Below the pieces are notes generated by a model. That model was not told where the DNA came from. It saw only the letters and a program-made list of their open reading frames with translations, and made no database searches. This document shows positions 8,255 through 60,671 of a stretch of 64,000 nt of DNA, piece by piece. This DNA is from Motilibacter deserti. GTDB lineage: Bacteria > Actinomycetota > Actinomycetes > Motilibacterales > Motilibacteraceae. The position numbers and the translations under genes are program-made. Each line of letters starts with the position of its first letter. The stretch's first letter is position 1. Location: positions 588,129 to 652,128 of the forward strand of contig NZ_JAANNP010000002.1 of assembly GCF_011250635.1 (NCBI RefSeq), in the 5' to 3' direction.

Positions 8255-8284
8255 TTGACATCCCGTCCGAGGGCCCGGTCACAC
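8255..8284 (+). promoter_or_regulatory. candidate promoter upstream of GH97 gene
   Basis: A perfect -35 TTGACA at 8255-8260 is followed by an 18-base spacer and TCACAC, a poor -10. It would give a ~150-base leader before the start at 8435. Confidence 0.35.
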
Positions 8285-8434
8285 TGCGGACGCGGAACCG
8301 ATTCCGTGCGGATTGTCGGGCTGTTGCCCGCCGGGCTTGCCGTCCTGGTCGGCCATCACAGCCACGTCCGTCCGCCCATCCTGCCGGCTCACGTCGAGGG
8401 GCCGGCGAGGCAACGACGCCTTCCGGGAGACCGC

Positions 8435-21039: not shown

Positions 21040-23538
21040 CTACACCGCGTACGCCGGCCGCTCCCGTAGCACGCGGCGTCCTGGCAGCTCGATGCACGCG
21101 AACGTGCTGCCCACGACGACCAGCACCACCGCCGGAAGCAGCCAGAGCGGTCCGGCTGCCCATGGCCGGTCGAGGAACCCGACGCCCAGCAACATCAGCG
21201 GTACCGCCGCGACCGCGAGCCCGCTGCCGATCGCGCACACCGAGAGCAGCGAAGCCTCCCGCCGCAGCATCGCCCGCAGCTGCCGGGAGGTCGCACCGCT
21301 GAGCCGCAGTGCCGCCAGCTCGTCCCGACGCTGTGAAGTGGCCGCCACGAGCTTGTTCGCGATGCCCATCAGCACGTACCCAAGCAACACCAGGATCACG
21401 ACGAGGTTCAGCTTCACCTCCGGCGGCACAGGCAGGGATCCGCTGGAGATGGACGACAGGGCGAGCCCGGGCTGCACGTCCACCGCTTCCGCCAGCCTGG
21501 AGCTTCTCTCGGTACGCACCAGCACGCGATCAGCCAACAGTCCCGTGTGCCCCTCGGCCAGGTCGCGAGACAGCACCACCGACCCGAACCCGAGCGACCG
21601 CGAATACACCGCCACGACCCGCGCCTGCACCGACGCGCCGTCACCGAGCAAAAGAGCCACGTCGCGCCCGACCCCGGCGTTCCGCGACCGGGCCACGTCC
21701 TCGGACACCGCAACGGTGGCTCCGTGCAGATCGGCAACGTCGCCGGCGCGTACACCAAGGTCCAGCACGTCCCAAGTGTCGGGCTCGAGCACCATTGCCG
21801 GCTCGGGCTCCACCTCGACGTCGCCGAGCACCGTGTGCGGCCAGAGCACGGTCGTCGACGAGACAGCCGAAGCGGCCTTCACCCCAGGAATCGTGCGCAG
21901 CTGCTCGACCAGCCCGTCTGGCACCCCGCCCAACGCGCCGGCCGACACCTCGTGCTGCGCCAGCGACCCGGCGCTGCTCTCGCGCTCGACGGCGGCCATC
22001 ACCGTCGTCTGCGCGAGGACGTAGGTCAGCACCAGCACCACCGCCATCGCGAGCGTCGACACCACCCCGGCCGACCGGACGGCGAACGCACGCACGTTCT
22101 CCACCGCCAGCCACAGGGGTGACGACGCCCGCCGCTGCGAGCGAGGCCCGAGCAGAGCGCCGAGCCGCTGCAGCAGGGCCGGCCCGGCGAGGGCGAGGCC
22201 GATCGAGGCGATGATCCCCGCCAGCGACGTCATCCCAGCGCCGAGCGCGGAGCGCATGAGCAACGGTGCGACGGACAGCACGAGGGCACCGCCGAACAGC
22301 ACGAGGCCAGAGACGACCCGGACGCGCGAGACCTCGCGCGGCTCGCTATGCGATTCAAGAACCGCTTCGACCGCGGACATCCGCGACGTCCGCCGCGAGG
22401 CAGCCCGCGCAGCAACCTGCACGGTGGCTCCGAGCAGCAGCAGGGCGCACAACGCCGGTAGTGGGCTCCGGGCGAGTGGCATCTCTGGCGGCAACCCGAG
22501 CCCGGTGAGCAGCCCGCGCAGCTGGCCCGCCACGGCGTACCCGAGGACGATGCCGGGAACGGCGCCAACGGCAGCGGCAACGGAAGCCTGCCCGGCCGCC
22601 AGCGAGCGCACCTGGCGCGGGGTAGCGCCGACAGCGCGCAGCAGGGCGAGCTCGCGGCGCTGGCCCTCGACCGCGACGGACAGCGCGCCGGCGACGATTA
22701 AGCCGACGACCAACAGCACGATCCCGCTCAACGACCCCGCGGCCGCGAGCAGCAGCCCGCGCGACGCGGCCGCCGCGGGGGAGGCGGCGTCGCCACGGCT
22801 CGCGCCCGTCGACGCCACGAGCCCCGAGCCGGCGAGCCGCGACCGCACCTCGTCGGCGACCTCGGACGATCGGCCCGGAGCAGCACGGACGCCCACGAGG
22901 TCCACCGTCCCGGCGCGTACGCCGGACTCCCGCCCCGCGAGCCGCAGCGCCGTCGCATCGGCGAGCAGGACACCTGCGTGCGGTGACCCGACGACGGCCG
23001 TGACGACGTACGACCCCGACCGGCCCGCGATCACCAGCCGCGCCCGGTCGCCCACGGCGAGCCGGGTGGCAGCGGCCAAGGAGGACCCGAGCGCGACCTC
23101 GCCGTTCCCCACCGGTGCGCGCCCCTGCACCGCCACACGCCCGAGGAGGGCGGCCGACGACCACCCGTGCCCCGCGGAAGCAGGGTCCTCCGTGCTCACG
23201 ACCCGGCCCCCGGGCGCGACGACCGCGGCGGGAAGGCTCACGTCCCCGACCACCGACTCCACCCCGGGCACGTCCCGCAGCTGCGAGACGACGGACGCAG
23301 GCACCACCGCCCGCTCCGGCAGCGGCACCGACACGTCCCCCGGCACCGGCAGCGACTGCCGAGCAGTCACGACGACGTCCGCGCCCGCGAGCCGCCCGGG
23401 TGGCAGGTGCGAGCGCACCCCTGACTCGAAGAGCACACCAGCACCGGTGAACAGCGCCGCGCCGCCGAGGACGGCCAGCGCGATCGCGAACAGCGCCGCC
23501 ACGCGGCGGCGCGCCATGCTCGACGCCAGCTGCAGCAC
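21040..23538 (-). CDS. ABC transporter permease, FtsX/MacB type
   Basis: An 832-residue membrane protein from a GTG start, 3 bases after its ATPase partner. There is an N-terminal transmembrane helix ('ALFAIALAVLGGAALFTGAG'), a large extracellular domain, then two FtsX-type membrane units: one at ~265-400 ('GIVLLVVGLIVAGALSVAVEGQRRELALLRAVGATPRQV') and one near the C-terminus ('LRLSGATSRQLRAMLRREA'). The repeated 'LR..GAT..Q' coupling helices contact the ATPase. Such exporters move lipoproteins, peptides or antibiotics out of the membrane rather than importing solutes. A divergent two-component system next door suggests stress- or drug-induced expression. Confidence 0.9.
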   Translation of the reverse strand: MLQLASSMARRRVAALFAIALAVLGGAALFTGAGVLFESGVRSHLPPGRLAGADVVVTARQSLPVPGDVSVPLPERAVVPASVVSQLRDVPGVESVVGDVSLPAAVVAPGGRVVSTEDPASAGHGWSSAALLGRVAVQGRAPVGNGEVALGSSLAAATRLAVGDRARLVIAGRSGSYVVTAVVGSPHAGVLLADATALRLAGRESGVRAGTVDLVGVRAAPGRSSEVADEVRSRLAGSGLVASTGASRGDAASPAAAASRGLLLAAAGSLSGIVLLVVGLIVAGALSVAVEGQRRELALLRAVGATPRQVRSLAAGQASVAAAVGAVPGIVLGYAVAGQLRGLLTGLGLPPEMPLARSPLPALCALLLLGATVQVAARAASRRTSRMSAVEAVLESHSEPREVSRVRVVSGLVLFGGALVLSVAPLLMRSALGAGMTSLAGIIASIGLALAGPALLQRLGALLGPRSQRRASSPLWLAVENVRAFAVRSAGVVSTLAMAVVLVLTYVLAQTTVMAAVERESSAGSLAQHEVSAGALGGVPDGLVEQLRTIPGVKAASAVSSTTVLWPHTVLGDVEVEPEPAMVLEPDTWDVLDLGVRAGDVADLHGATVAVSEDVARSRNAGVGRDVALLLGDGASVQARVVAVYSRSLGFGSVVLSRDLAEGHTGLLADRVLVRTERSSRLAEAVDVQPGLALSSISSGSLPVPPEVKLNLVVILVLLGYVLMGIANKLVAATSQRRDELAALRLSGATSRQLRAMLRREASLLSVCAIGSGLAVAAVPLMLLGVGFLDRPWAAGPLWLLPAVVLVVVGSTFACIELPGRRVLRERPAYAV

Positions 23539-23541
23539 GGC

Positions 23542-24315
23542 TCAGCCCTCCTCGAGCGCGACGAGCCGGTTGGCGACGGCCGGAGCGGTGGGCGAGCCGA
23601 CCTGTTCGACGACCCGGCCGTCGGCCATCACCAGCGCGGTGTCGGCGTACGCGGCTGCCGCCGGGTCGTGCGTCACCATCACCACCGTCTGCCCGAGCTC
23701 GGTGACGAGGCTGCGGAGCAGGGCGAGCACCGTGCGCGCGGTACGCAGGTCCAGCGCACCCGTCGGCTCGTCGGCGAACACCACCGCAGGCCGGGCGATC
23801 AGCGCCCGGGCGATCGCCACGCGCTGCTGCTGGCCGCCCGACAGCTCGGCCGGCCGCGCGTCCAGCCGCTCCGGCAGACCGACCCGCGACACCAGCTCGC
23901 GCAGCCAGCCAGGGCCGGGGGTCTTGCCCGCGAGCCGTAGCGGCAGCGTGATGTTGTCGGCGACGCTCAGCGACGGGATGAGGTTGTACGCCTGGAAGAC
24001 GAACCCGATCCGCTCCCGCCGCAGCTCCGTCCGCCGCGTCTCGCCGAGCCCGGAGACCTCGACGCCCTCGATCCGTACGCTGCCCGTGGTGGGCACGTCG
24101 AGCCCCGCCGCACAGTGCATCAGCGTGCTCTTGCCCGACCCCGACGGGCCCACGACCGCGACAAAGGCCCCCGACGGCACCTCGAGGGAGACGTCGTCCA
24201 GCGCTCGCACGCCGCCGGCGTACGTCTTGGACACGGCCTCCAGCGAGATGGCAGAAGCGGGACCGGGGTGTAGCGGTTCGGCGAAGACAGGTTCAGCCAT
24301 CGGGGCGACGCTCAC
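23542..24315 (-). CDS. ABC transporter ATPase, LolD/MacB type
   Basis: A 257-residue ATPase with Walker A 'GPSGSGKST', Q-loop 'FQAYNLIPSL', signature 'LSGGQQQR', Walker B 'VVFADEPT' and the switch His in 'MVTHD'. The 'GALDLRTA' stretch after Walker B is typical of LolD-like exporters. It is the first gene of a two-gene operon with the FtsX-type permease. A second in-frame ATG at 24300 could be the true start. Confidence 0.93.
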   Translation of the reverse strand: MSVAPMAEPVFAEPLHPGPASAISLEAVSKTYAGGVRALDDVSLEVPSGAFVAVVGPSGSGKSTLMHCAAGLDVPTTGSVRIEGVEVSGLGETRRTELRRERIGFVFQAYNLIPSLSVADNITLPLRLAGKTPGPGWLRELVSRVGLPERLDARPAELSGGQQQRVAIARALIARPAVVFADEPTGALDLRTARTVLALLRSLVTELGQTVVMVTHDPAAAAYADTALVMADGRVVEQVGSPTAPAVANRLVALEEG

Positions 24316-24485
24316 GAGGCACTCCTTGCATCGATGTGGAGGTGCCTTCGACGCTAGGCAGCGGGGACGCTGCGGCCGAGCCCGCGCACGGGCGTCTTCA
24401 CGGTGCAGCAGGCACTACCGACAACCGGTGGCGAGCCCCCTACGCTCGAAGGGACCGCAAGCCGCCCCGATGGACGGAGCTCGAC

Positions 24486-25757
24486 GTGCCGCCCCAGGCG
24501 CCCCAGGACGACGAGGCCCAGGAAGGCCTGCGTGCTCGGCTGCCGCGCGTGGCCGGTGACGCCCTCGTCTCGCTGGAGCAGGTGGCCGGGGCCTTCGTAA
24601 CCGCGGTGCTCGCCTTCGGCGTGCTGTCCTGGCTGGGCGTCGTCCTCGTGCTGTGCGTCGTCGGGGTCGGCCTGCTGCTGGTCCCGAACGCGCTGCGGGC
24701 GGTCCACGCGGTCGCGGAGCGCGAGCGCAACCGCCTTCGCCGGACGAACGGCCCCTTCCTCGGCCCAGGCGACCCGCCTGGGCAGCTCGGAGCGGCGCGC
24801 AACGACCCGGACGTACGCCGTGAGCTGCGCTGGCTCGTCGGCCACGCCACCGGCGGGCTGTTGCTCGCGGCGCTCGGCCTGCTGCTGCCGATCTCCGGCC
24901 TGCGCGACGTCACCGTGCCGCTGTGGTGGCGCTTCTTCGCGCAGGGCGAGGTGACGCCGACCCTGAGCCTGTGGGTGGTCGGCAGCTGGGGGAGCGCCTT
25001 CGCGGCTCTCCTCCTGGGCGTCGGGTGGATCGCGCTCAGCGCGACTCTCACCCCGGCGATGGCGCGTTGGCTCGTACGCCGGGGGCTGCGCCTGCTGCCG
25101 CTCGACCCCAGCAGCGACCTCACCCTGCGCGTGGCTCAGCTGTCCGCGACCCGGGCCGCCGCGCTCGACGCGCACGCGACCGAGCTGCGACGCATCGAGC
25201 GGGCGCTGCACGACGGCACGCAGAACCGGCTCGTCGCCGTCACCGTCCTGCTCGGCGCCGCGCGACGGGCCGCGGAGCGCAACCCGGCGGCCGCCGCGGA
25301 GATCCTCGAGCGCGCGCAGGCCGCGGCGGAGGACGCCCTGGCCGAGCTGCGCGGCGTCGTACGCAGCATCCTCCCGCCCGTGCTCGCCGACCGCGGCCTC
25401 ACGGGAGCGCTGCGCGGCCTCGCCGCGACCAGCCCGATTCCGTGCGACCTGCGCGTCGACGTCCCCGGCCGGTGCGCGGCGGCCGTCGAGGCCACCGCGT
25501 ACTTCGTCGTCGCGGAGTCGTTGACCAACGCGGCGCGGCACAGCGGCGCCACCGCGGTCGACGTCGACGTGCGCAGGCGTGGCGACGAGCTATACGTGCG
25601 GGTCACCGACAACGGCAAGGGCGGGGCCGACGAGGCGCGCGGCAGTGGCCTCCTTGGCATCCGGCTGCGCGTCGAGGCGCTCGACGGCACGGTGACGATG
25701 ACCAGCCCGGTCGGCGGGCCGACGACACTGGAGGTACGGCTGGCATGCGGATCGTGA
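24486..25757 (+). CDS. NarL-type sensor histidine kinase
   Basis: 423 residues from the GTG at 24486, chosen because GGAG lies 7 bases upstream; longer starts back to 24336 exist. Two pairs of transmembrane helices (~35-75 and ~125-190) form a short sensor. The HisKA_3 box is 'ERALHDGTQNRLVAV' with phospho-acceptor His242. The ATPase domain has the N box 'VVAESLTNAARHSG' and G box 'VTDNGKGG'. It overlaps the response regulator by 13 bases. The divergent exporter is the likely target, as in many actinomycete envelope-stress systems. Confidence 0.9.
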   Translation: MPPQAPQDDEAQEGLRARLPRVAGDALVSLEQVAGAFVTAVLAFGVLSWLGVVLVLCVVGVGLLLVPNALRAVHAVAERERNRLRRTNGPFLGPGDPPGQLGAARNDPDVRRELRWLVGHATGGLLLAALGLLLPISGLRDVTVPLWWRFFAQGEVTPTLSLWVVGSWGSAFAALLLGVGWIALSATLTPAMARWLVRRGLRLLPLDPSSDLTLRVAQLSATRAAALDAHATELRRIERALHDGTQNRLVAVTVLLGAARRAAERNPAAAAEILERAQAAAEDALAELRGVVRSILPPVLADRGLTGALRGLAATSPIPCDLRVDVPGRCAAAVEATAYFVVAESLTNAARHSGATAVDVDVRRRGDELYVRVTDNGKGGADEARGSGLLGIRLRVEALDGTVTMTSPVGGPTTLEVRLACGS

Positions 25758-26398
25758 TCGCCGAGGACGACGCCCTGCTTCGCGAAGGCGTCGCCCTCCT
25801 GCTCAAGGCCGAGGGGCTCGACGTCGTCGCCACCGCCGAGGGGCCGGACGCGTTCCTCGCCGCCGTCGACGAGCACCGTCCCGACGTCGCCATCGTCGAC
25901 GTCCGTATGCCACCCACGCACACCGACGAGGGCATCGTCGCGGCGGTCGAGGCCCGCCGCCGGCAGCCGGAGCTAGCCGTGCTGGTGCTGTCGGCGTACG
26001 TCGAGCAGGCCTTCGCGACCGACCTGCTGGCCAGTGGGGCGGCGGGGCTCGGCTACCTGCTCAAGGAGCGTGTCGGGCGCGTGGAGTCGTTCCTCGAAGC
26101 GCTGCACCGGGTCGCTGCCGGCGGGACGTCCATCGACCCCGACGTCGTCGCGCAGCTCATGACGCGCGGGCGCGCCGACGCCGGGTTGGAGCGGCTGACG
26201 TCGCGCGAGCGTGAGGTGCTCGACCTCATGGCGCAGGGCCTGGGCAACGCGGCCATCGCCGAGCGGCTGGTCGTCACCGACGGGGCGGTGCACAAGCACA
26301 TCCGCAGCATCTTCTCAAAGCTCGACCTGCCACCGACCGAGCAGACCGACCGGCGGGTCGTCGCGGTGCTGAGGTATCTCGAGGACCTCCGCCGCTGA
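25745..26398 (+). CDS. NarL/LuxR-family response regulator
   Basis: A 217-residue regulator with a receiver domain (acidic pair 'EDD', phospho-acceptor Asp52 in 'IVDVRMPP', Lys in 'LLKERVG') and a C-terminal LuxR helix-turn-helix ('LTSREREVLDLMAQGLGNAAIAERLVVTDGAVHKHI'). The ATG at 25745 lies inside the kinase gene, so the pair is translationally coupled. It probably activates the divergent ABC exporter genes. Confidence 0.93.
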   Translation: MRIVIAEDDALLREGVALLLKAEGLDVVATAEGPDAFLAAVDEHRPDVAIVDVRMPPTHTDEGIVAAVEARRRQPELAVLVLSAYVEQAFATDLLASGAAGLGYLLKERVGRVESFLEALHRVAAGGTSIDPDVVAQLMTRGRADAGLERLTSREREVLDLMAQGLGNAAIAERLVVTDGAVHKHIRSIFSKLDLPPTEQTDRRVVAVLRYLEDLRR

Positions 26399-26599: not shown

Positions 26600-29500
26600 A
26601 TGCACGGGCCCAGATTCCGTCTTTTGTCGATGGCCACAGCACTTGCCATCGCGTCGACCGGCGCCGTCGCGACCGCGACGTCCGCATCGGCGGCCGACGC
26701 GACGTACGCCCTCCAAGGGCTGAGGTTCGTCAACGTCTCGGACAGCCCGTGGTACGACGACTACAGCGGCCGCGTGACCAGCGACGGCACCATCGCCATC
26801 GGCTTCGACCCCGACGACGGCCCCTTCGTCCCGGTCCTCAAGGCCGAGGGCCGAGTGCAGGTCTACTACAACGACGGAGCGCCGCACTTCACCATCAGTG
26901 GCAGCGCCGCCGAGGCCACGACCGGCAAGGACGTCCAGTTCCTTCAGGGCAACCAGGACTTCGTCATCGACTCGCTGGTCGGGGAGGGAACCCCGATCTA
27001 CAGCAGCTACAAGTACATCAACATCTTCGACGACTCCTACTTCACGCCGCGGCGCGTGCAGATGGAGAGCACCCCGTCGGGCGGCCGCCTCGATTTCCAA
27101 GGCACCCTCGGGGTCCCGGCGCTGGGCAACCTGCAGCTGCCCATCCAGGAGAAGAACGAGGTGCGCGCCGAGCCGGGCCGGCTCGCGCTGTCTGGTGTCG
27201 GGCCGGAGATCACCGCCGACGGCTTCGGCATCGGCAACTACGGCCCGCACCTCTTCAACGACGCCGTCGACCCCGGGGACAAGCTCACGATCGACTACGC
27301 GTACGACTCCGAGCACGACACCGACACCTTCACGGTCCGAGGCAAGGGCTCGCTGCAGGTGCCCGGCGGAGCGCAGCGCGCCGCCATCGAGCTCGGCGGC
27401 ACCGACGCCCAGGGCGAGCAGCTGGACCCGCTCGTCGTACGCGACGGTCAGGTCGCCGCGCTGGAGGCCCGGGCCATCGGCACCCTGTCCGCCGGCTACG
27501 TGAACATCGAGCCCGTCAACGTGATCGCCCGCTACCTGCCGCCGAAGGACGACTCGATCTTCGCCCGGCTGGGCTTCTCCGGCCCCGCCCGGCTCAGCAA
27601 CGCCGGTGACGCGCCGGTCGACGTCACCCTCGACGCCCCCGGGATGGTGCTGACCGTCAGCGGCTGGGACCCGTTCGGCTACACCCTCCTCGGCACGCTC
27701 AAGGCGTCGCTCGCCAACGGGCACTACAAGAGCCTCTACAGCAACGGCGGGAACATCGTCCTCAACGGCCCGGTCGAGATCGCGGTCGCACCGGGAACCT
27801 ACGTGGGCGACAACTTCCCGCTGGTCCAGGTCAACAACGGCAGCGTCTCCGGCGCTTTCACCAATGCGAGCGACGGCACCGTCCTCACTCTTCCCGACGG
27901 CCGCAAGTTCCGCGTCGACTACCGGCCGGACACGGTCCTCGCCACGCAGGTGCCCGGCGTGGCGGCCCCGGCCGCCCCCGCCCGGCCGACCGTCGTGCGT
28001 GGCGACCGGCAGGCGACGGTGTCGTGGACGGAGCCGGAGGCCAACGGGGACCCCATCACCAAGTACACCGTCACCGCGCACGACGCCAACGGCGTCGTCG
28101 ACACGCTCACCGCCGGCCCCGACGCCCGCTCGCTGCCGTTCCCCGGGCTGACCAATGGCACGGCCTACACGTTCACCGTCGTCGCCCACAACGGGACCGG
28201 CGCCTCCGACCCCTCCCCGGCCTCCGCCGAGGCGACGCCCGCCGCCGTCCCGGGCGCCCCGACAGCCGTCAGCGCACTGCGCGGCGACGCCAAGGCGACG
28301 GTCTCCTGGTCCCCGCCGTCCGACAGCGGAGGCGATGCCGTCGTCGCATACACCGTCACGGCCTCGCCCGGCGGCGCGACCCAGCGCGTGCCCGGCAACC
28401 AGTTCAGCGTGGTCCTCGGCGGCCTCGCCAACGGGGTCGCGCACACCTTCGTGGTGACGGCCGAGAACGCCGTCGGCGCGGGCGTCGCGTCCGCTGCCTC
28501 TGCCCCCGTGACGCCGGCGACCGTGCCGGACGCGGCGACCGACATCATGGCCGTCCCGGGCAGCGGGAAGGCGACCGTCTCGTGGACCGCGCCCGCGGTC
28601 GACGGCGGCGAGGCCGTCTCCAAGTACAAGGTCGTCACCTACGACGCCCACGGCGGCTACCTGAAGGACGAGACCGTCGTGGGCGCCACGTCCCTCCTCG
28701 TCACCGGCCTCGTCAACGGCGCGCGCTACTCGTTCCGGGTCTCCGCGGTGAACGCGGTCGGCGGCAGCACGCTCTCCGCCTTCTCCGCGCCGGTCGTGCC
28801 GTGCGATGCTCCCGGCGCCCCGGTCGAGGTGTCGGCGCAGGCCGGCGACGGCCGCGCCACGGTGACGTGGTCGGCGCCGCTCAGCGACGGCGGCGCGCCG
28901 GTCACCGGCTACCTCGTCACCGCGTACGACGCCGAGGGCCGCCCGGCCGGCAGCGTCCGCGCGGGCGCGCAGGCAACCTCCGCCGTAGTGGAGGGGCTGA
29001 CCGGTGGGGTCGCCTACACCTTCCGCATCGCCGCGGAGAACGCCACCGGCGCCGGTGAGCTGTCCGGGGCCTCGGCCGCCGTGACGCCCCGCGGCGTCGC
29101 GGGCGCCCCGGCCGACGTCACCGCGGTCGCCGGCGACCGACAGGCCACCGTGTCCTGGAAGGCTCCCGCTCGCGACGGCGGCGCGCCGATCACCGGCTAC
29201 ACCGTCGTGGCGTCGCCCGGTGGGACCTCCGTGGTCGTCGGCGCCGACGCGCGCTCCGTGGTCGTGCCCGGCCTGGCCAACGGCACCGCCTACACCTTCA
29301 CCGTGACGGCGACCAACGCGCTGGGGCAGAGCAGCCCGTCGGCCGCGTCGACCGCCACCGTGCCGGTCGCGGCTGCCCCGGTCGTCCCCGCTCCGGCCCC
29401 GGTCGCTCCGGCCCCGGTCGCTCCGGGCCCGGTGGCCCCGGCTCCGGTGGCCCCGGCTCCGGTCGCGCCGGCCCCGGTCGCCCCGGCCCCGACGCCGACC

Positions 29501-30163
29501 CCTGCCCCCGCCATCGTCGTGCCCGCGAAGGCCGCCACGAAGGTGAAGCAGAACTCCGTCGCCGTCGGCTGCACCGCCGGGACCGGCACCGTCACCGCGT
29601 GCGAGATCAAGCTCGTGGCAACCGTCCGCGGCAAGCAGGTCGTCATCGGCCGTGGCACGTTCACGGGCGCCGGCGAGGCGTCTAGCGTCGATGTCAAGGT
29701 CGTGCTGACGCCCGCGGGCAAGAAGCTCGTCGCCCGACCCGGCGGTCTGCGCACCCAGGTCGTGGCCTCGGTCGAGACGACGGCGGCCGCGGAGCCGACC
29801 GTGCTCAAGGCCGTCGCGACCGTTGTCCCGCCGCGGGTCATCGTCACCCCCGCCGACCTGCTCTTCGCGTACGGCTCGGCTGAGCTCACCCCGAAGGGGC
29901 GCCGCTACGTGGCGGGCCTGCGGGAGCGGGTCGGAGCGGCGAAGGCAGCCCGGTTCGAGGGCTACACCGACAGCGCCGGAAGCGCCGCGCTCAACCAGCG
30001 CCTCGGCCTCGCCCGGGCCAAGGCGGTCGCCGCTGCGCTCGGGCTGGACGAGAGCGTCAAGGTGACCTTCGTGTCCTTCGGCGAGACGAACCCGCACGCC
30101 TCGAACGCGACCGCCGACGGCCGCGCCGCGAACCGGCGCGTCGACATCGTGCTGTCGTACTGA
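26600..30163 (+). CDS. large secreted protein with five Fn3 domains and C-terminal OmpA domain
   Basis: 1187 residues from the ATG at 26600 (GAGAGAGG upstream). There is a signal peptide ('ATALAIASTGAVATATSASA'), then ~430 residues of beta-rich sequence I do not recognise. Five Fn3 repeats follow (~455-923, each with 'ATVSW' and 'GTAYTFTV'-like strands), then a Val-Ala-Pro-Ala-Pro linker (~925-970). Next is a ~100-residue beta domain with two cysteines, and an OmpA-type domain (~1080-1187, 'LLFAYGSAELTPKG'). 'YTDSAGSAALNQRLGLARA' keeps the Asp and, 15 residues later, the Arg that grip diaminopimelate in E. coli OmpA. It probably sits non-covalently on peptidoglycan. The last two domains are shared with the protein at 56736-60671. 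Confidence 0.85.
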   Translation: MHGPRFRLLSMATALAIASTGAVATATSASAADATYALQGLRFVNVSDSPWYDDYSGRVTSDGTIAIGFDPDDGPFVPVLKAEGRVQVYYNDGAPHFTISGSAAEATTGKDVQFLQGNQDFVIDSLVGEGTPIYSSYKYINIFDDSYFTPRRVQMESTPSGGRLDFQGTLGVPALGNLQLPIQEKNEVRAEPGRLALSGVGPEITADGFGIGNYGPHLFNDAVDPGDKLTIDYAYDSEHDTDTFTVRGKGSLQVPGGAQRAAIELGGTDAQGEQLDPLVVRDGQVAALEARAIGTLSAGYVNIEPVNVIARYLPPKDDSIFARLGFSGPARLSNAGDAPVDVTLDAPGMVLTVSGWDPFGYTLLGTLKASLANGHYKSLYSNGGNIVLNGPVEIAVAPGTYVGDNFPLVQVNNGSVSGAFTNASDGTVLTLPDGRKFRVDYRPDTVLATQVPGVAAPAAPARPTVVRGDRQATVSWTEPEANGDPITKYTVTAHDANGVVDTLTAGPDARSLPFPGLTNGTAYTFTVVAHNGTGASDPSPASAEATPAAVPGAPTAVSALRGDAKATVSWSPPSDSGGDAVVAYTVTASPGGATQRVPGNQFSVVLGGLANGVAHTFVVTAENAVGAGVASAASAPVTPATVPDAATDIMAVPGSGKATVSWTAPAVDGGEAVSKYKVVTYDAHGGYLKDETVVGATSLLVTGLVNGARYSFRVSAVNAVGGSTLSAFSAPVVPCDAPGAPVEVSAQAGDGRATVTWSAPLSDGGAPVTGYLVTAYDAEGRPAGSVRAGAQATSAVVEGLTGGVAYTFRIAAENATGAGELSGASAAVTPRGVAGAPADVTAVAGDRQATVSWKAPARDGGAPITGYTVVASPGGTSVVVGADARSVVVPGLANGTAYTFTVTATNALGQSSPSAASTATVPVAAAPVVPAPAPVAPAPVAPGPVAPAPVAPAPVAPAPVAPAPTPTPAPAIVVPAKAATKVKQNSVAVGCTAGTGTVTACEIKLVATVRGKQVVIGRGTFTGAGEASSVDVKVVLTPAGKKLVARPGGLRTQVVASVETTAAAEPTVLKAVATVVPPRVIVTPADLLFAYGSAELTPKGRRYVAGLRERVGAAKAARFEGYTDSAGSAALNQRLGLARAKAVAAALGLDESVKVTFVSFGETNPHASNATADGRAANRRVDIVLSY
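29381..29500 (+). repeat. in-gene tandem repeat coding a Val-Ala-Pro linker
   Basis: Repeated units such as GGTCGCTCCGGCCCC encode (V-A-P-A/G-P)n. The linker separates the last Fn3 domain from the wall-binding part and is a likely site of length variation. Confidence 0.8.
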
Positions 30164-31590: not shown

Positions 31591-31706
31591 GCCGTCGCCG
31601 GTGCGGGGAGCACTCGGCGAGGGGCAGCGGCGCGCCGCCCCCGGCGTACCGTGGCCTCGGGCACCCAGCCCGCTTGGTCCCGAGATGTCAGGGAGGACAT
31701 CGCACC

Positions 31707-33647
31707 GTGAAGACCTTCTCCCGAGCGCTGGCCGCGGCCGTCGTGACCGCTCTCGTCGGTACGCTCGCGCCGGCCGCCACCGCCGCGCCCCCGGAGCCTG
31801 CGCTGACCGACGCGACGTACTTCAACAGCGCGTCGCAGAACGCGGCGGACCCGTTCGTGCTATTCGACGAGGCGAGCGGCTACTACTACGCCTATTCGAC
31901 CGACGGCGCGGACCGCGGCTGGGACTTCGGCATCTACCGCTCGGCCGACCTCTCCACGTGGGAGCACGTCCCTGGTGGTGCGCTTAGCCAGAGCGACCCG
32001 AAGCGCTGGGGCAAGGACTGGTTCTGGGCGCCGGAGGTCTACCACAACGACAAAACCGGGCTCTACTACTTCTTCTACGCCGCCCGCATGCAGGACGACG
32101 TCCAGCAGACGTTCGGCTACGCGGACTTCGAGGAGCCGAGCAAGGTCGGGGTCGCGGTGTCGACGTCGCCGGCGGGGCCGTTCCACAACATCTCCGACGA
32201 GCCCATCGACTACTGGCCCTACGACCCGGACTACCGGGACGTCAACCTCATCATGGACGCGACGCAGCGGAAGCCTCCGGCCACACGGGAGGAGGGTGAG
32301 ACGGCGCCGCTGGGGACGTACATCCCCTTCATCGACCCCAACGTCTTCTTCGACGACGACGGGCGCGTCTATCTCTACTACTCGCGCAACGCCTACCGGA
32401 ACTGGGTCTGGGACACGGACCTCGGCAAGTACATCGAGGAGTCCAACATCTACGCGGTCGAGCTGACCGCGGACTGGTGGAACGACCCGACGGGCACGAC
32501 GATGCCGTCGATCACCCCCGCGTACAAGAACGCCAATGTCCGCCCCGGTGCTCCGGAGGGTGCGCGCCGCGACGGGTTCACCCCGGTCGTGAACTACGGC
32601 TCGGACAAGCAGGCGTGGGAGAACGCCCACGTCAACGACTACACCGTCTACGTCGGGCAGAAGAAGGACCGTCGCTGGTCCGAGGGCTCGACGACGGTCA
32701 AGCACTACGTGAACGGCAAGGCCGTCTACTACCTGCTCTACTCGGCGAACAACTGGGAGAACGAGAACTACGGCGTCGGGTACGCGACGGCGGACAGCCC
32801 GCTCGGCCCCTGGCGCAAGTTCGAGGGCAACCCCGTGCTGTCCAAGAACGCGGCGCTCCCGATGTACGGCACCGGCCACGGCAGCGTCATCGCCTCCCCG
32901 GACGGCAGCGAGCTCTACTACGTCCACCACGGCCGGCCGGGTGCGACGTCCGGGCCGCGCAAGCTCTACACCGAGCGCATGACGATCGACGACGCGAAGC
33001 CTGATGCGAACGGCAACCCGACGCTAAGCATCGACCAGACGACGGCGGACCGCCCGGTTCCGTCGGGCGTCGGCCCGTTCTCGATCACAGCGGGAACAGC
33101 GACGAAGCTCGAGCCCGGCGAGGCTGCGGACGTCGCGGTCACCGTCAAGAGCGCCCCCGGCGCCGCGCTCCCGCTGACCGACCCGCTGAACCGCGTCACC
33201 GCTCTCGTGGCCGACCCCGCCGTCGCCACCGCAACCGTCTCCGGCGGGACGGTCCGCGTGACCGCCAACAGCGCCGGCACGACGCAGGTCACCGTGACGT
33301 ACCAGCGGCAGCAGTCCTCGGGCGCCTACGTCGACGTGCACAACCTGACCGAGGCCGGCGCGACGCCGGTCGCGGTCACCTTCACCGTCGTCGTCCACCC
33401 GACGCTCGCCCAGCTGCGCGCGACGGTGGACGAGCTCGTCACGGGCAAGCACGTGGTCGCCAGCTACGGCCGGGACCTGCGCGAGCTGCTCGACACCGCC
33501 GAGGCCGCCCAGGCGCGCGGCGACGACGGCGCGGTGCTGGCCGCGGTGCGGCAGCTGAGCGGGGTCGTGACCGCGGCCCGCCCGGCCAAGGTCGACGCGT
33601 ACGCCCGCCAGCAGCTGACGCAGCTGCTCGGGCTCTGGCTCGCCTGA
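31707..33647 (+). CDS. secreted glycoside hydrolase family 43 enzyme
   Basis: 646 residues from GTG 31707 with GGGAGG upstream. The signal peptide ends about 'APAATAAPPEP'. Residues ~35-430 form a five-bladed propeller with GH43 signatures: Asp48 in 'AADPFVL' (base), 'WAPEVY', 'IDPNVFFDDDGRVYLYYS' (third acidic residue) and Glu326 in 'SEGSTTVKH' (acid), then 'MYGTGHGS'. GH43 enzymes usually cut arabinose or xylose linkages; the specificity cannot be told. Beyond ~430 lie a bacterial Ig-like domain ('VADPAVATATVSGGTVRVTANSAG') and a short helical FIVAR-like tail that may bind sugar or wall. A hairpin terminator follows. Confidence 0.87.
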   Translation: MKTFSRALAAAVVTALVGTLAPAATAAPPEPALTDATYFNSASQNAADPFVLFDEASGYYYAYSTDGADRGWDFGIYRSADLSTWEHVPGGALSQSDPKRWGKDWFWAPEVYHNDKTGLYYFFYAARMQDDVQQTFGYADFEEPSKVGVAVSTSPAGPFHNISDEPIDYWPYDPDYRDVNLIMDATQRKPPATREEGETAPLGTYIPFIDPNVFFDDDGRVYLYYSRNAYRNWVWDTDLGKYIEESNIYAVELTADWWNDPTGTTMPSITPAYKNANVRPGAPEGARRDGFTPVVNYGSDKQAWENAHVNDYTVYVGQKKDRRWSEGSTTVKHYVNGKAVYYLLYSANNWENENYGVGYATADSPLGPWRKFEGNPVLSKNAALPMYGTGHGSVIASPDGSELYYVHHGRPGATSGPRKLYTERMTIDDAKPDANGNPTLSIDQTTADRPVPSGVGPFSITAGTATKLEPGEAADVAVTVKSAPGAALPLTDPLNRVTALVADPAVATATVSGGTVRVTANSAGTTQVTVTYQRQQSSGAYVDVHNLTEAGATPVAVTFTVVVHPTLAQLRATVDELVTGKHVVASYGRDLRELLDTAEAAQARGDDGAVLAAVRQLSGVVTAARPAKVDAYARQQLTQLLGLWLA

Positions 33648-37481: not shown

Positions 37482-40259
37482 GTGACCCGTACACCCGCCC
37501 GGCTGCTGCCGGCCCTGCTCTCTCTCGCGCTGGCGGTGCTCCTGCTCCCCGCGCTGTCCACGGCGCCGGCCCAGGCCGTCCCACCGGTGGACGCTGCGCT
37601 GGACGTGATCCCACGTCCGCAGAGCGCGGTCGCGACGGGCGGGTCGGCCACGCTGCCGGCGGTCGTCGGGCTGGTCGCGGCGCCGTCGGCGGATCCGGCC
37701 GCCCTGGCCCAGCTGAAGGACCTGCTCGGCCGACAGGGCGTCAGCACGCGCGACGGGGCCATGACCGGCCGCGACGGGGTGACCTTCTACCTGGACGGGC
37801 CGGGTGCCGGCGCCGCCCTGCAGCGCATGGGCACCCAGGGGCCTGCGGGCCTGCCATCCGGCGGGTACGTCCTCGCGTCCGGGCGCGACGGCAAGGGCTG
37901 GTCGGTCGTCCTCGCGGGAGTCGACGCCGACGGCACGTTCCATGCCGTCCAGACGCTCGAACAGCTCCTTCCGGCCGCCGCCGGCACGACGCGCACCCGG
38001 CTGCGGGGCGTGACGATCCGCGACTGGCCGGGCTTCGGCACGCGCGGCGTGATCGAGGGCTTCTACGGCGCGCCCTGGTCGCCGGAGGACCGGCTCCGCC
38101 AGCTGGAGGCGTACGGCGACCTGAAGCTCGGTACCTACGTCTACGCGCCGAAGGACGACCCGTACCACCGCGAGCGGTGGCGCGACCCGTACCCGTCGGA
38201 CCAGCTCGCGCAGCTGGGCCAGCTCGTCACGACGGCGCGCGACAACCACGTCGACCTGGTCTTCGCCGTCTCGCCGGGCCAGTCGATCTGCTACACCTCC
38301 GAGGCCGACATCTCCGCGCTGTACGCGAAGGCGGAGGCGGTCTACGGCCTCGGCGTGCGCGACTTCGCGCTCTTCTTCGACGACATCTCCACTTCGCTGA
38401 ACTGCGCTTCGGACCAGCAGCGGTTCGGCGCGGACGCCTCGCCCGCGGCGGCCGCCCAGGCGTACCTGCTCGACCGTTTCCAGCGTGAGTTCCTCGCCGC
38501 GCACGCGGGCAGCGGGCCGCTGCAGACCGTCCCGACCGAGTACTCCGGCCTCGGCGCCTCCGCCTACAAGTCGCGGTTCGCGGCCCTCGTGCCCGCCGGC
38601 GTCAACGTCTACTGGACCGGCTCCGACGTCGTCGCGCCGACCGTCACCGCGGCGCAGACCCAGCAGGCCAGGACGCTCTACGGCAGCCACCCGCTGCTGC
38701 TGTGGGACAACTACCCGGTCAACGACTACTCCGAGGACCGGCTCTACCTCGGCCCGCTCGTCGGCCGCGCCCCGGACCTGCCCGCGGCCGGCCTCGACGG
38801 CGTGATCGCGAACCCGATGGTGCAGGCCGAGCCGTCACTGCTGCCCCTCGCCACGACCGCGGACTACGCCTGGAACCCCGCGGCCTACGACCCCGACGCC
38901 TCGCAGGCCCGCGCAGCCCGCTACCTCGCCGGCGACGCGGCCGATGCGCTGCTCACGTTCGCCGACGTCAACCGCAGCTCGCCGTTGGGACAGGCCGAGG
39001 CGCCGCGGCTCGCCACGCTGATCGCGGCGTTCGAGGCCGAGCTCGACGCCGGGACGCTCACGTCGAGCACGACGCGCCGGCTGGAGGACGCGTTCGAGGA
39101 GCTGCAGAAGGCGCCCGGAATCCTGCGCGAGAACGCGCAGACGCAGAGGTTCGCCGAGCAGGCCGACCTCTGGCTGCGAGAGGCGGAGGCGCTCGGCCGG
39201 GCCGGGGCGGCCGCGGCGGGCTCGCTCTATGCCCAGTCCCGCGGGCACGAGACGTCGGCGTGGAACGACCGAGCCGCCCTCGAGGAGGCGCTCGCCGAGT
39301 CGATCGAGCTGCGGCCGACGGTGGGCTACGGGGTGCTCGACACCTTCCTGCGCCGGGCGCAGCAGGCCAGCACGGTCGTCACGCTCTCGTCGCCGGCGGC
39401 GGGGACGACGTTGACGCCGGGCAGCGACGTCGTGCTGACGGCAGGCATTGCGTCCGGCTCGGCGGGTGTTGCGGCGGTGCGGTTCTACGTCGGCGGCCGC
39501 CTCGTCGGCACCGCGACGGGCGCGCCGTGGCAGGTCACGTGGACCGACGTCCCGCGCGGCGTCGCGCAGGTCGTCGTCGAGGCCGAGGACGCCTCCGGCC
39601 GTCGCATCGCGTCGACACCGGTGGACCTCACCGTGGGCGTACCCGATCGGGCGCTGCTCCTCATCGGCATGGACGCGCCGACCAGCAACCCCGAGGGGAC
39701 GGTGGGCGAGCAGGCCGTCGTCTCGCGGCTGGCGCGGCTCGGCCTTGCGACCGACATCCGGATCGCCGCGAGCACGACGACGGCTGACGCGAACGGCTAT
39801 TCGCTGATCGTGGTCTCGTCCACGGTCGCCTCCTCTGCCGTCGGCACGAAGTTCCGCGACCTCGCGATCCCGGTCGTGGCGTGGGAAGCGTTCGTGTTCG
39901 ACGACTTCAGGATGACCACGAACCAGGGGGAGGAGTTCCGCCAGCAGACGATCGACGTCGTGCCCGGCACCCCGCTGTCCGCCGGGCTCAGCGGGACCGT
40001 GGCCGTCTACCGCGCCCCCGGGCGCATCCGCTGGGGCGTGGTCGGACCCGGGGCCGTCGTCGCGGCGACCTACACCGGCATCCCGACACGTGCAACGCTC
40101 TTCGGGTACGCCGCCGGCGCGCCACTGGTCGACGGCAGCCCCGCTCCGGCCGCGCGGGTCGGCATGTTCCTCGGGGACGAGGCGCTCGACCCGGGGCTGG
40201 CCAACGACGCGACTCTCGCACTCTTCGACCGCTCGGTGACGTGGGCGCTCGGGAGGTGA
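37482..40259 (+). CDS. secreted GH84 beta-N-acetylglucosaminidase
   Basis: 925 residues from GTG 37482 (GGAGG upstream) with a signal peptide ('LLSLALAVLLLPALSTAPAQA'). Residues ~40-180 are the N-terminal alpha/beta domain and ~185-480 the GH84 barrel: 'RGVIEGFYGAPWSPEDRL' and 'FALFFDDIS', with catalytic Asp300-Asp301 matching the Asp pair of NagJ/O-GlcNAcase for substrate-assisted cleavage. A helical domain follows, then an Ig-like Big_9 domain (~630-720) and an unusual ~190-residue domain ('ALLLIGMDAPTSNPEG') with a flavodoxin or amidotransferase-like pattern. It removes terminal beta-GlcNAc from glycans. Its stop overlaps the nagA start (GTGA), tying outside hydrolysis to GlcNAc catabolism. 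Confidence 0.9.
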   Translation: MTRTPARLLPALLSLALAVLLLPALSTAPAQAVPPVDAALDVIPRPQSAVATGGSATLPAVVGLVAAPSADPAALAQLKDLLGRQGVSTRDGAMTGRDGVTFYLDGPGAGAALQRMGTQGPAGLPSGGYVLASGRDGKGWSVVLAGVDADGTFHAVQTLEQLLPAAAGTTRTRLRGVTIRDWPGFGTRGVIEGFYGAPWSPEDRLRQLEAYGDLKLGTYVYAPKDDPYHRERWRDPYPSDQLAQLGQLVTTARDNHVDLVFAVSPGQSICYTSEADISALYAKAEAVYGLGVRDFALFFDDISTSLNCASDQQRFGADASPAAAAQAYLLDRFQREFLAAHAGSGPLQTVPTEYSGLGASAYKSRFAALVPAGVNVYWTGSDVVAPTVTAAQTQQARTLYGSHPLLLWDNYPVNDYSEDRLYLGPLVGRAPDLPAAGLDGVIANPMVQAEPSLLPLATTADYAWNPAAYDPDASQARAARYLAGDAADALLTFADVNRSSPLGQAEAPRLATLIAAFEAELDAGTLTSSTTRRLEDAFEELQKAPGILRENAQTQRFAEQADLWLREAEALGRAGAAAAGSLYAQSRGHETSAWNDRAALEEALAESIELRPTVGYGVLDTFLRRAQQASTVVTLSSPAAGTTLTPGSDVVLTAGIASGSAGVAAVRFYVGGRLVGTATGAPWQVTWTDVPRGVAQVVVEAEDASGRRIASTPVDLTVGVPDRALLLIGMDAPTSNPEGTVGEQAVVSRLARLGLATDIRIAASTTTADANGYSLIVVSSTVASSAVGTKFRDLAIPVVAWEAFVFDDFRMTTNQGEEFRQQTIDVVPGTPLSAGLSGTVAVYRAPGRIRWGVVGPGAVVAATYTGIPTRATLFGYAAGAPLVDGSPAPAARVGMFLGDEALDPGLANDATLALFDRSVTWALGR

Positions 40260-56735: not shown

Positions 56736-59700
56736 TCAGTAGGACAGCTTGATGTCCGTACGCCGGTTCAGCTGCCGCCCGCGGGCGGTCGTGTTGCTCG
56801 CGATCGGCGAGGTCTCGCCCTGAGTGACCGTCACCGCGTCGGCGTCCAGGCCCTTGAGCAGGAACGTGCAGACCGAGACCGCGCGCCGCTTCCCAAGGCC
56901 GACGTTGTAGCTGGTCGTGTCCCGCGAGTCGGTCGACCCGACGCACGTGACCGTGCGGACGCCCGTGAGCTTCGTGCGCAGCGACGTGAGGTACTTCCGG
57001 TCCGCCGGGCGGATGACCGCGCTGTCGGTGTCGAAGTAGACCGGGCGGATCACCAGGACGTTCTGGGCGACGACCTTCGTCCGGGTGTGCACGACGAGGG
57101 TGGCGCCGCCGCCGCGCCGCGCGATGCGCGAGACGACGGACATCTCACGGCCACCCGGCTGGGCGGCCAGCGCCCGGCCGAGGGTCGTCAGCTTGACCGG
57201 GACCGAGAGGTAGCGGACCGACGAGGTCGCCGCGACCTTCATCGAGCCGCGGCCGGTGACCGTGGGCTCGCCGTTCACGGTCGCGAAGAGCGTGACCCCG
57301 CAGGCGTCGATGCGCGCGTTCGAGACCGAGCAACTCACCGGAACGGTGCTTCCGGAACCCGCGATCGTCCTCCGCGTCGGCGCCGCCGTGCCGCCGGTCA
57401 CCGGGGGCAGCACCACGGGGGCCACCGGCGCCGGGACGACGCTCGGGACGTACGTGGCGCCGACGACCTGGTTGTAGGCGTCGGTCAGCCGGAACTTCAC
57501 GCCCTTCGCCACGCCGGTGAAGCCGGGAGCGGGGACGAACGTGATGGTGCCGGTCGTGGTGTCGAGGGCGTACGTGCCCTCACCGGCGACGACCACGACG
57601 GTCGAAGGGTTGCCGGAAGCGTCGAGCAGCGTGGCCGACCCGCCGCGCGGGACCACGATGCCGCCGGTCTGCTGAGCGGTGCCGGTGCCCGTCGAGGACA
57701 GCGAGGACGGCGCGGCGAGGGCCGGCGCGGTCGTCGTCACGGTCACGGTCGCGGTGACCCGGCGGCCGGCGCCGTCGACCGCGGCGTAGCCGAACGTGTC
57801 GGCGCCCGAGTGCCCGAAGGCGGGGGTGTAGGTGACGTTGCCGGCGGCGCCGACGACCGTGGTGCCGTGCGCCGGGGCCGCGGTGACGGCCACCGAGGAG
57901 CGGTCGAACTCGCCCGAGTCGTTGGTCAGGACGTCGATCTTGACCGGCGTTTCCGCCGGTGTCACGGCGGTGTCGTCCGCGGCACGCGGCGTGACCGTCA
58001 CGGTGACTGTGCCGACGGCGATCCCACCACGGCCGTTGTCCACGGTGTAGGTGTAGGCGTCGTTGCCGCTCCAGCCGGCGTCCGGGGTGTAGGTCACCCG
58101 GCCGTCGGCGCCGAGCACCGCGCCGCCGTGGGCGGGCTGCGTGATGCCGGTGACCGTGAGCGGGTAGCCCGCCGGGTCGGTGTCGTTGGCGCGGACGTCG
58201 GTGGTGACCGCGGAGCCGACGGGCGTGGTGGCCGTGTCAGGCCCGACGACGGGCGCGCCGGCCGCGACGACCGTCAGCGTGAGGGTGGTGACGGCGGTGC
58301 CGCCCTGGCCGTCGGCGACCTCGATGATCGAGACGTACGAGCCCGGCGTCGTCACCGTGCCGGTGAACGCGCCGCCGGTGCCGAGCGTCACGCCGGCGGG
58401 CAGCACGCCGCCGGTCCTGGTGTAGGTGAGCGGGTCGTGGTCGGCGTCGGTGGCCGCGAGCGCGGTCGGCGTGTCGCCGAGGACGACCGTCTGCGCCGTG
58501 TTGCTCGCGGCCCCGGTGTAGGCGGGGGCGATGTTCAGCACGTGCCACTGCGCGTAGAGCGTCGCGTGTGCGTTGGCGCTGTAGGTCGAGCCGGGGGCGT
58601 ACGCGGTGCCCGAGCCGTCCGCCGCCGTGTTCCAGCCGGTGAAGGCCCGGCCGGCGTACGTGACGCCGGAACCGGTCGCGACAGTCACCGAGCCGCCCTC
58701 GACGAAGTCGGCCGAGGCGGGCGCGCCGGTGCCGCCGTTGGCGTCGTAGCCGACCGTGTAGACGGGCGCCCACCGGGCGTACAGCGTGACGTTCGCGTTG
58801 CTGGCGTAGGTCGCGCCCGCCGCGTAGCTCGTGCCGCTGCCGTCGGCCGCGGTGTTCCAGCCGCGGAAGACGTAGCTGGCGCGGGACAGGCCGGTGCCCG
58901 CGGCGACCGTCGTCGAGCCGCCGGCCGAGAAGGTGGACGCGGCCGGCGTGGTGCCGGTGCCCGCGTTGGCGTCGTAGCTGACCGTGTAGGTCGCGAGCGC
59001 GACGTCGAAGAAGCGCTCGACCGGCGAGGCGAAGGCGAAGGTGCCGTTGCCCGGCTGGGTGGCGCGGACCTTGCAGACGCCCGGCGCCACCGCGCGGATC
59101 GAGAGGCCCGTGACGGTGCAGACCGACGGCGTGTAGGACGCGAGGGTGACGGGGAGCCCGGAGCTGGCCGTCGCGCCCGACGGGAAGGTCTGCGGAGCGC
59201 CGGTTGCGAGCAGCTGCGTGCCCGGGGCCGGGAAGGTGATCGACTGCCCGGCGAGCGTGGAGACGGGGAAGGTCACCTCGACCGGCGGGGCGAACCCGTA
59301 CGTCGCGTCACCGTCCTGCGTCGCCTCGATGGTGCAGGCGCCGGTGATGAGGGCGTCGATCTTCGTCGGGTCCACGGAGTTCACGGCGCAGATCGCCGGG
59401 GACTTGCTGGTCAGCGTGACCGGCAGGCCCGACGAGGCGGTGGTGTCGGAGGCGACCGTGCTGCCCGGCGCGGCGACGACCGGGCTGGGGAAGGTGATCG
59501 TCTGGCTCGTCGTCGACGGGCTCAGGGTGACGGTGTTGGAGCCGGTGCTGAAGGCGAGGCCGTCCGAGACGCGGAAGTCCATCGTGTCGAGCGGGCCGGC
59601 CGTCAGGCGCAGCTTGCCGAGCTCGATGTCCTCGGTCGTGACGAACTGGCCCGCCGTGACCGGCGTCCACGACGAGCCGGTCTGCAGCTCGAGGGCCCCC

Positions 59701-60671
59701 TGGGTGGGCGTCGCGACGATCTTCACCCCGGCCATCGGGTTGTCGTCGGGGTCGGAGTAGGTGCCGAAGGTCGACAGCGGCAGCGCGGTCGGCACGCCCG
59801 GGACGACGTTGACCGTGCGGCTCGTCGTCGTCGGCGGCTGGTTGAACGGGTTGTCGTAGGTCACGACCTGCGTCGAGTAGGCGCCCCAGTTGGGGGCCCC
59901 GAACTGGACGCCGAAGAAGTTCTGCCCGCCCTCGACGTTGCCGAAGACGATGTCGATCCGGCTCAGCGCGTCATAGGTGACGCTGGCCTGGTCGCGCGGG
60001 TCGTTCGGCCGGTTGCCCTGCTCGGTCGCCTTGAAGCGGACCCGGTTGGTGCTGGAGGGCTGGGAGACCTCGAGCCACGGCTGGTTCGCCGTGTTGCGGG
60101 CGTTGACCACCGTGTAGCGCTGGAAGCCGGTGAAGTCGGTGAACTGGTACTCCGGGCCGTTCGACGTGTCGATGTCGATCGAGGTCATCGTCACGTTCTT
60201 GAGGACGACCGGCGTCCCGGACCCGGGGCGGGAGTACGTGCCCGCCTCGTAGAACGCGAACGAGAAGCCCGTGGTGCCGCCGCCGCTCGGGGTCGTGGCG
60301 TCGATCTGGAAGTTGCCGGCGGTGGTGCTCGCGCTGCCGGGGTTGTCGTACGACCCGACCGTGGTGTTCGGCGAGATGTGGCTGGTGACGACCGCGTCGA
60401 CGGCCACGCCCGACACGTTGGCCACGTTCTTGTAGAGCACGACGTCGCCGTCTTTGGTGCCGGAGCCGGTGCCGCTGATGTCGACGTAGTTGCCCGTGGT
60501 GTGGTTGAAGGCCAGCGTCTGGCCGGACATGTTGAGGCTGGTGTACGCGGTGGAGCGCGAGGCGTCGAGCAGGCCGGCGCCGGTCAGGCCGGTCGCCACG
60601 AGCGCCGCGGCCGCCGCCGTGGCTGCCCAGGTGCGCCGGCGGAGGCGGTGCCGGGGTGCGTATCTGTGCAC
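56736..60671 (-). CDS. giant surface protein with InlB-like, cadherin/CshA-type repeats and C-terminal OmpA domain
   Basis: 1311 residues from GTG 60671 (CTGGAG upstream). A basic start and signal helix ('AATAAAAALVATGLTGAGLL') lead to a ~300-residue N-domain with no family I know ('NMSGQTLAFNHTTGNYVDISG'). Then come Ig-like repeats with 'ITFPSP' strands, two InlB B-type repeats (~565-710, both with 'FRGWNTAADGSGT'-like cores), a He_PIG-type domain, two cadherin-like 'VTYTPDAGWSGNDAYTY' repeats and one CshA-type fibril repeat ('GTYALDTTTGTITFVPAPGFTG'). The end (~1190-1311) is OmpA-like, keeping Asp in 'GSTDSR' and Arg 15 residues later. This looks like a peptidoglycan-bound adhesin; the last ~210 residues parallel the protein at 26600-30163. 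Confidence 0.85.
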   Translation of the reverse strand: MHRYAPRHRLRRRTWAATAAAAALVATGLTGAGLLDASRSTAYTSLNMSGQTLAFNHTTGNYVDISGTGSGTKDGDVVLYKNVANVSGVAVDAVVTSHISPNTTVGSYDNPGSASTTAGNFQIDATTPSGGGTTGFSFAFYEAGTYSRPGSGTPVVLKNVTMTSIDIDTSNGPEYQFTDFTGFQRYTVVNARNTANQPWLEVSQPSSTNRVRFKATEQGNRPNDPRDQASVTYDALSRIDIVFGNVEGGQNFFGVQFGAPNWGAYSTQVVTYDNPFNQPPTTTSRTVNVVPGVPTALPLSTFGTYSDPDDNPMAGVKIVATPTQGALELQTGSSWTPVTAGQFVTTEDIELGKLRLTAGPLDTMDFRVSDGLAFSTGSNTVTLSPSTTSQTITFPSPVVAAPGSTVASDTTASSGLPVTLTSKSPAICAVNSVDPTKIDALITGACTIEATQDGDATYGFAPPVEVTFPVSTLAGQSITFPAPGTQLLATGAPQTFPSGATASSGLPVTLASYTPSVCTVTGLSIRAVAPGVCKVRATQPGNGTFAFASPVERFFDVALATYTVSYDANAGTGTTPAASTFSAGGSTTVAAGTGLSRASYVFRGWNTAADGSGTSYAAGATYASNANVTLYARWAPVYTVGYDANGGTGAPASADFVEGGSVTVATGSGVTYAGRAFTGWNTAADGSGTAYAPGSTYSANAHATLYAQWHVLNIAPAYTGAASNTAQTVVLGDTPTALAATDADHDPLTYTRTGGVLPAGVTLGTGGAFTGTVTTPGSYVSIIEVADGQGGTAVTTLTLTVVAAGAPVVGPDTATTPVGSAVTTDVRANDTDPAGYPLTVTGITQPAHGGAVLGADGRVTYTPDAGWSGNDAYTYTVDNGRGGIAVGTVTVTVTPRAADDTAVTPAETPVKIDVLTNDSGEFDRSSVAVTAAPAHGTTVVGAAGNVTYTPAFGHSGADTFGYAAVDGAGRRVTATVTVTTTAPALAAPSSLSSTGTGTAQQTGGIVVPRGGSATLLDASGNPSTVVVVAGEGTYALDTTTGTITFVPAPGFTGVAKGVKFRLTDAYNQVVGATYVPSVVPAPVAPVVLPPVTGGTAAPTRRTIAGSGSTVPVSCSVSNARIDACGVTLFATVNGEPTVTGRGSMKVAATSSVRYLSVPVKLTTLGRALAAQPGGREMSVVSRIARRGGGATLVVHTRTKVVAQNVLVIRPVYFDTDSAVIRPADRKYLTSLRTKLTGVRTVTCVGSTDSRDTTSYNVGLGKRRAVSVCTFLLKGLDADAVTVTQGETSPIASNTTARGRQLNRRTDIKLSY

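Follow-up and report, generated by a model that had tools for sequence, protein, structure and literature searches.

An Ig-like and OmpA-type C-terminal module on a predicted secreted Fn3 protein of Motilibacter deserti

Introduction

The gene at 26600-30163 encodes a protein with a signal-peptide-like start, a series of Fn3 repeats, and a C terminus that resembles the peptidoglycan-binding OmpA domain. This raises the question of how such a protein would be held at the surface of a Gram-positive bacterium and which part of it would serve as the anchor. A reading made from the sequence alone had seen in it a non-covalent alternative to sortase anchoring, common to two proteins in the window (the whole stretch of DNA analysed, 64,000 nucleotides). 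The locus was examined with profile searches, structure prediction, and comparison with 394 genomes of the class and a sample of the phylum. The reading preferred here, to which we assign a probability of about 0.7, is that the protein is a secreted, fibrillar adhesin-like surface protein that would be held to the wall non-covalently by a two-domain C-terminal anchor; its peptidoglycan binding, orientation, and adhesive role, like its export, are what we infer from the features described below.

Results

Domain layout of the 1187-residue protein

The features of the gene and its product are as follows.

26600..30163, + strand: gene for the 1187-residue Fn3/Ig-like/OmpA protein (open reading frame from ATG at 26600 to TGA at 30161-30163; Pfam fn3 five times and OmpA)
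26600..26692, + strand: predicted signal peptide, residues 1-31, with SASA at its end (sequence and a crude hydrophobicity test)
26693..27973, + strand: N-terminal region, residues 32-458 (427 residues), a possible head domain, without a Pfam match
27974..29359, + strand: five Fn3 domains, residues about 459-920 (Pfam fn3; boundaries by motif)
29360..29509, + strand: Val-Ala-Pro-rich repeat linker, residues about 921-970 (sequence)
29510..29836, + strand: Ig-like beta-sandwich domain, residues 971-1079, with Cys991 and Cys1001 (alignment, model, Foldseek matches to Ig-like folds)
29861..30136, + strand: OmpA peptidoglycan-binding domain, residues 1088-1179, with Asp1124 and Arg1139 (Pfam PF00691, whole-genome match, model)

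The first 31 residues, MHGPRFRLLSMATALAIASTGAVATATSASA, are followed by ADATYAL and were compatible with a signal peptide in the crude hydrophobicity test. Five stretches matched Pfam fn3 (E 1e-66), with repeats that start, by motif, at about residues 459, 550, 642, 737, and 833, and the Val-Ala-Pro linker behind them was evident from the sequence, so this part of the earlier description stands. Residues 32-458 gave no match in Pfam and no recognised adhesive domain there. Relatives of this region were found, across the 394 class genomes, in its own genome only (one partial paralogue at 29% identity and one fragment), and its last ~70 residues presumably recall the beta-helix repeats of autotransporter-type proteins. 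The polypeptide ends 8 residues past the OmpA domain, with NRRVDIVLSY as its last residues. In its length, its stalk of five Fn3 domains, its C-terminal OmpA domain and, by the crude test, its signal peptide, the protein has the makeup of a fibrillar adhesin-like protein.

The C-terminal domain belongs to the OmpA family

A C-terminal OmpA domain had been proposed before any database search, and the profile search agreed: residues 1088-1179 matched PF00691 with 40.7 bits against a cut-off of 27.2 (E 3.2e-10), and the match recurred in a whole-genome profile search. Matches of the protein by phmmer, to solved OmpA domains, included E. coli YiaD, mycobacterial Rv0899, and Omp38 of Acinetobacter baumannii, and MotB models remained far under their cut-offs (28 bits against 300). 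Alignment placed Asp1124, within the motif GYTD, and Arg1139 at a spacing of 15 residues, as had been noted. The numbers Asp271 and Arg286, which the sequence-only reading had ascribed to E. coli OmpA, are those of A. baumannii OmpA (PMC5974059).

By every feature testable here, the domain is a member of the OmpA family. It shares with the known members of PF00691 (OmpA, Pal, OprF, MotB, YiaD, and Pba/PA1041) a profile score above the cut-off, the Asp/Arg spacing of 15, and a match to the DAP-bound fold. Those members mostly link an outer membrane, a lipoprotein, or a motor to the wall, whereas here the domain ends a Gram-positive secreted Fn3 stalk and is preceded by an Ig-like domain that has no reliable Pfam match. 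What is new is the setting of the domain, on a Gram-positive Fn3 stalk protein, and its Ig-like companion.

An Ig-like domain and the OmpA domain form one module

In all five OmpA proteins of this genome, the OmpA domain is preceded by an Ig-like domain of ~105 residues in which two cysteines are invariant. An alignment of the 216-residue C terminus was matched full-length by all five, so that what these proteins share extends beyond OmpA. The earlier proposal of an OmpA end as the wall anchor is therefore right as to the presence of the domain but too narrow, as the conserved Ig-like domain would be part of the anchor as well. An AlphaFold model of the module, built with 17 module sequences, reached a pLDDT of 87 and a pTM of 0.78. 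Its best solved matches in Foldseek were OmpA-type peptidoglycan-binding domains (OprF, PA0833, A. baumannii OmpA, and the C-domain of Rv0899), with E values of 3e-8 to OprF and 3e-7 to 3td5; the OmpA half matched 3td3, 3td4 (OmpA with DAP), and 3td5 (OmpA with a meso-DAP pentapeptide), which bears out the fold proposed from the sequence. Modelled alone, the Ig-like domain had a pLDDT of 79.5 and weakly resembled Ig-like folds (best Foldseek E 1e-3, TM about 0.45). Pfam gave no convincing match to it, the best chance matches covering 1-2 of 17 members, and no solved relative was found by sequence.

Among the aligned Ig-like plus OmpA modules, the Asp is kept in 18 of 18 and the Arg in 17 of 18. 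The exceptions are a spacing of 14 in two modules and, in genome G307, a Trp for the Arg: the protein concerned (L144) has a full module, with Trp at the position of the expected DAP-binding Arg and an Arg one residue earlier. All aligned full-module proteins carry the module to the C terminus or to within one residue of it.

A domain that has lost peptidoglycan binding and acts merely as a structural cap or oligomerisation unit could account for the missing Arg in G307 and for the OmpA halves of several module proteins, which score under the Pfam cut-off. Since all five copies in this genome, and nearly all relatives, retain both Asp and Arg, such a loss is considered very improbable.

The module is reused behind different stalks

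The second of the two window proteins that had been said to share the OmpA end is real, and the genome total is larger, with five OmpA matches. Its features are the following.

56739..60671, - strand: second module protein, with Flg_new, Big_9/cadherin, CshA stalk, Ig-like, and OmpA domains (Pfam, module alignment)
56739..57389, - strand: C-terminal Ig-like plus OmpA module of this protein (alignments and genome search)

Read from a GTG at 60671, with another nearby start possible, to its end at 56739, this protein has 1311 residues; its OmpA domain scored 34 bits, and its Asp/Arg spacing is also 15. Similar proteins were found in genomes G001 and G004. The domains upstream of the module vary widely (Fn3, CshA, Big_9, cadherin, Flg_new, FG-GAP, Vgb/NHL propeller, and IgGFc-binding), as would fit an exchangeable anchor. 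CshA repeats were present in 13 of the module proteins counted, that is, in most of them, and were absent by Pfam from the 1187-residue protein. Four further proteins of the genome, with other heads and stalks, are closed by the same module, which suggests an exchangeable anchor cassette; as the common ending of five different proteins, the module has the appearance of a non-covalent wall anchor in general use.

Module proteins lack other anchors in a genome that encodes sortases

Sixteen module proteins were examined by script. Their last 60 residues contained no LPxTG-like motif, none of the proteins had a C-terminal stretch of sufficient hydrophobicity to form a membrane helix, and a signal-peptide-like start was seen in most of the 16. 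In the 1187-residue protein itself, no LPXTG-like motif, C-terminal membrane helix, or basic tail was found. The same genome gave four sortase matches, and at least two of its proteins end in LPRTG or LAKTG with a hydrophobic stretch and then basic residues behind the motif. The one ending in LPRTG, in which the hydrophobic stretch is accompanied by Arg residues, contains Big_9, a domain also seen in the second window protein. The suggestion of a non-covalent alternative to sortase thus agrees with the lack of sortase motifs and C-terminal helices in the module proteins, but as four sortases and LPXTG-type proteins coexist with them, the OmpA route would run in parallel to sortase anchoring and not replace it. 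The presumed end result is the same as for LPXTG proteins, from which the module proteins differ in having neither a sorting signal nor a C-terminal membrane helix.

The lack of a membrane or covalent tether in the module proteins also suits a different arrangement, in which the OmpA end binds the peptidoglycan of other cells or shed wall fragments and the protein, once released, serves as a bridge or matrix protein. A soluble OmpA domain would bind DAP-type peptidoglycan in trans, and peptidoglycan of this type is widespread. We regard this as quite unlikely, because the module always lies at the extreme C terminus with a linker or stalk before it, which is where a wall anchor sits, and because an exported module would first encounter the wall of its producer.

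Ligand of the OmpA domain

The host MurE carries the motif DNPR, which is the motif of DAP-adding enzymes. A DNPR MurE was found in all 10 genomes of the class sample that belong to the host family or carry the full module. Genomes G248 and G352 have DDPH in place of DNPR, and their OmpA proteins keep the Asp/Arg spacing of 15. The residue pair alone therefore neither proves DAP binding nor fixes the ligand. The proteins concerned (L180, L182, L184, and L185) would be suited to testing whether the pair tracks DAP.

Retention of the spacing next to a DDPH MurE would be explained if the domain were a general wall binder that recognises a feature not unique to DAP, such as a shared part of the stem peptide. 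This is judged unlikely. Pba of Pseudomonas aeruginosa, a tested OmpA family lipoprotein with both residues, binds meso-DAP specifically (Tri-DAP and not Tri-Lys; PMC7947798), and the corresponding protein of Borrelia, a spirochaete with ornithine-type peptidoglycan, has Glu in the place of Asp (PMC8092773). As for the DDPH genomes, their peptidoglycan type is itself only inferred.

Distribution in the class and phylum

Profile matches to the module were found in 175 of the 394 class genomes, nearly all of them confined to the OmpA part, which makes OmpA-type domains a common feature of this class. The view that such a domain is unusual outside outer-membrane bacteria, or in Gram-positives, was accordingly rejected; a solved precedent exists in mycobacterial Rv0899. 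Fewer matches were obtained for the Ig-like domain, 17 in 9 genomes, and all 17 coincide with a full module, directly before OmpA. In the phylum sample, two full copies of the module were found in G505, a genome of another class, and a single, more distant one in G574. Another family of the phylum gave three weak matches, two in G701 and one in G535, that take in the Ig-like part but no OmpA. They suggest that the Ig-like domain may exist apart from OmpA, and the statement that it occurs only with OmpA, which holds for 17 of 17 within the class, is softened by them. In a contig scan with the module, the conserved OmpA motifs outweighed the rest of the patterns, so that nearly all matches were OmpA domains of outer-membrane bacteria; Nonomuraea candida was the one named actinobacterium.

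Discussion

The features above can be assembled into a tentative order of events. The protein would be exported through its signal peptide, and the OmpA domain at its extreme C terminus would dock onto stem peptides of DAP-type peptidoglycan, where Asp1124 and Arg1139 would hold DAP. The Ig-like domain may act as a conserved spacer or collar before OmpA, and the Val-Ala-Pro linker would pass through the wall; the stalk, made up of the five Fn3 domains, would present the N-terminal head outside. Alongside the sortase system, the module would provide an anchor cassette that can be exchanged between proteins. Beyond this protein, there is in our estimate an even chance that Actinomycetota possess in the Ig-like plus OmpA unit a dedicated cell-wall sorting module that has not been described before, a non-covalent anchor of fibrillar adhesins on DAP-type peptidoglycan that can be swapped with sortase signals on the same stalks.

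The closest actinobacterial comparison is ArfA/OmpATb (Rv0899), whose solved C-domain matches that of the 1187-residue protein in sequence and structure. Rv0899 combines an N-terminal membrane anchor with a BON-like central domain (PMC6151718) and lacks an Fn3 stalk, whereas the protein described here has the stalk and gave no BON match in Pfam. With fibrillar adhesin-like proteins on CshA, Fn3, or Big stalks it shares the signal peptide, the repetitive stalk, and a C-terminal anchor. A survey of CshA_NR2 adhesins reported the sortase motif as universal in Gram-positives and OmpA ends in Gram-negatives (PMC10952558). In contrast, the OmpA end here is found in a Gram-positive, on a protein with neither CshA repeats nor a recognised adhesive domain. 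Module proteins with CshA repeats indicate that OmpA ends exist in Gram-positives too; the published statement concerns the narrower CshA_NR2 set. No OmpA-anchored Fn3 proteins of actinobacteria were found in the literature searched.

Surveys of Gram-positive adhesins look for sortase motifs. In another survey, only about half of the training proteins had a known anchor, which points to anchor domains still to be recognised (PMC9210967), and the Ig-like plus OmpA module would be one such anchor, easy to recognise. OmpA goes unmentioned in a general review of surface display in monoderms (PMC5817068); the module could be a tag for protein display on DAP-type Gram-positives.

Other genes of the window

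Just upstream of the adhesin-like gene, at 21040-26398, lie an FtsX-type permease gene (- strand) and a sensor kinase/LuxR-type response regulator pair (+ strand), and the adhesin-like gene may be regulated from there. The window also encodes a Fic/DOC family protein (15493-16704, E 6e-14) and a mycothiol-type (MDMPI_N) domain. Three glycoside hydrolases are encoded at 8255-11539, 31674-33647, and 37482-40259; the types present are a GH97 with CBM20, a GH43 with a Big_2/FIMAH-like end, and a beta-N-acetylglucosaminidase with Big_7.
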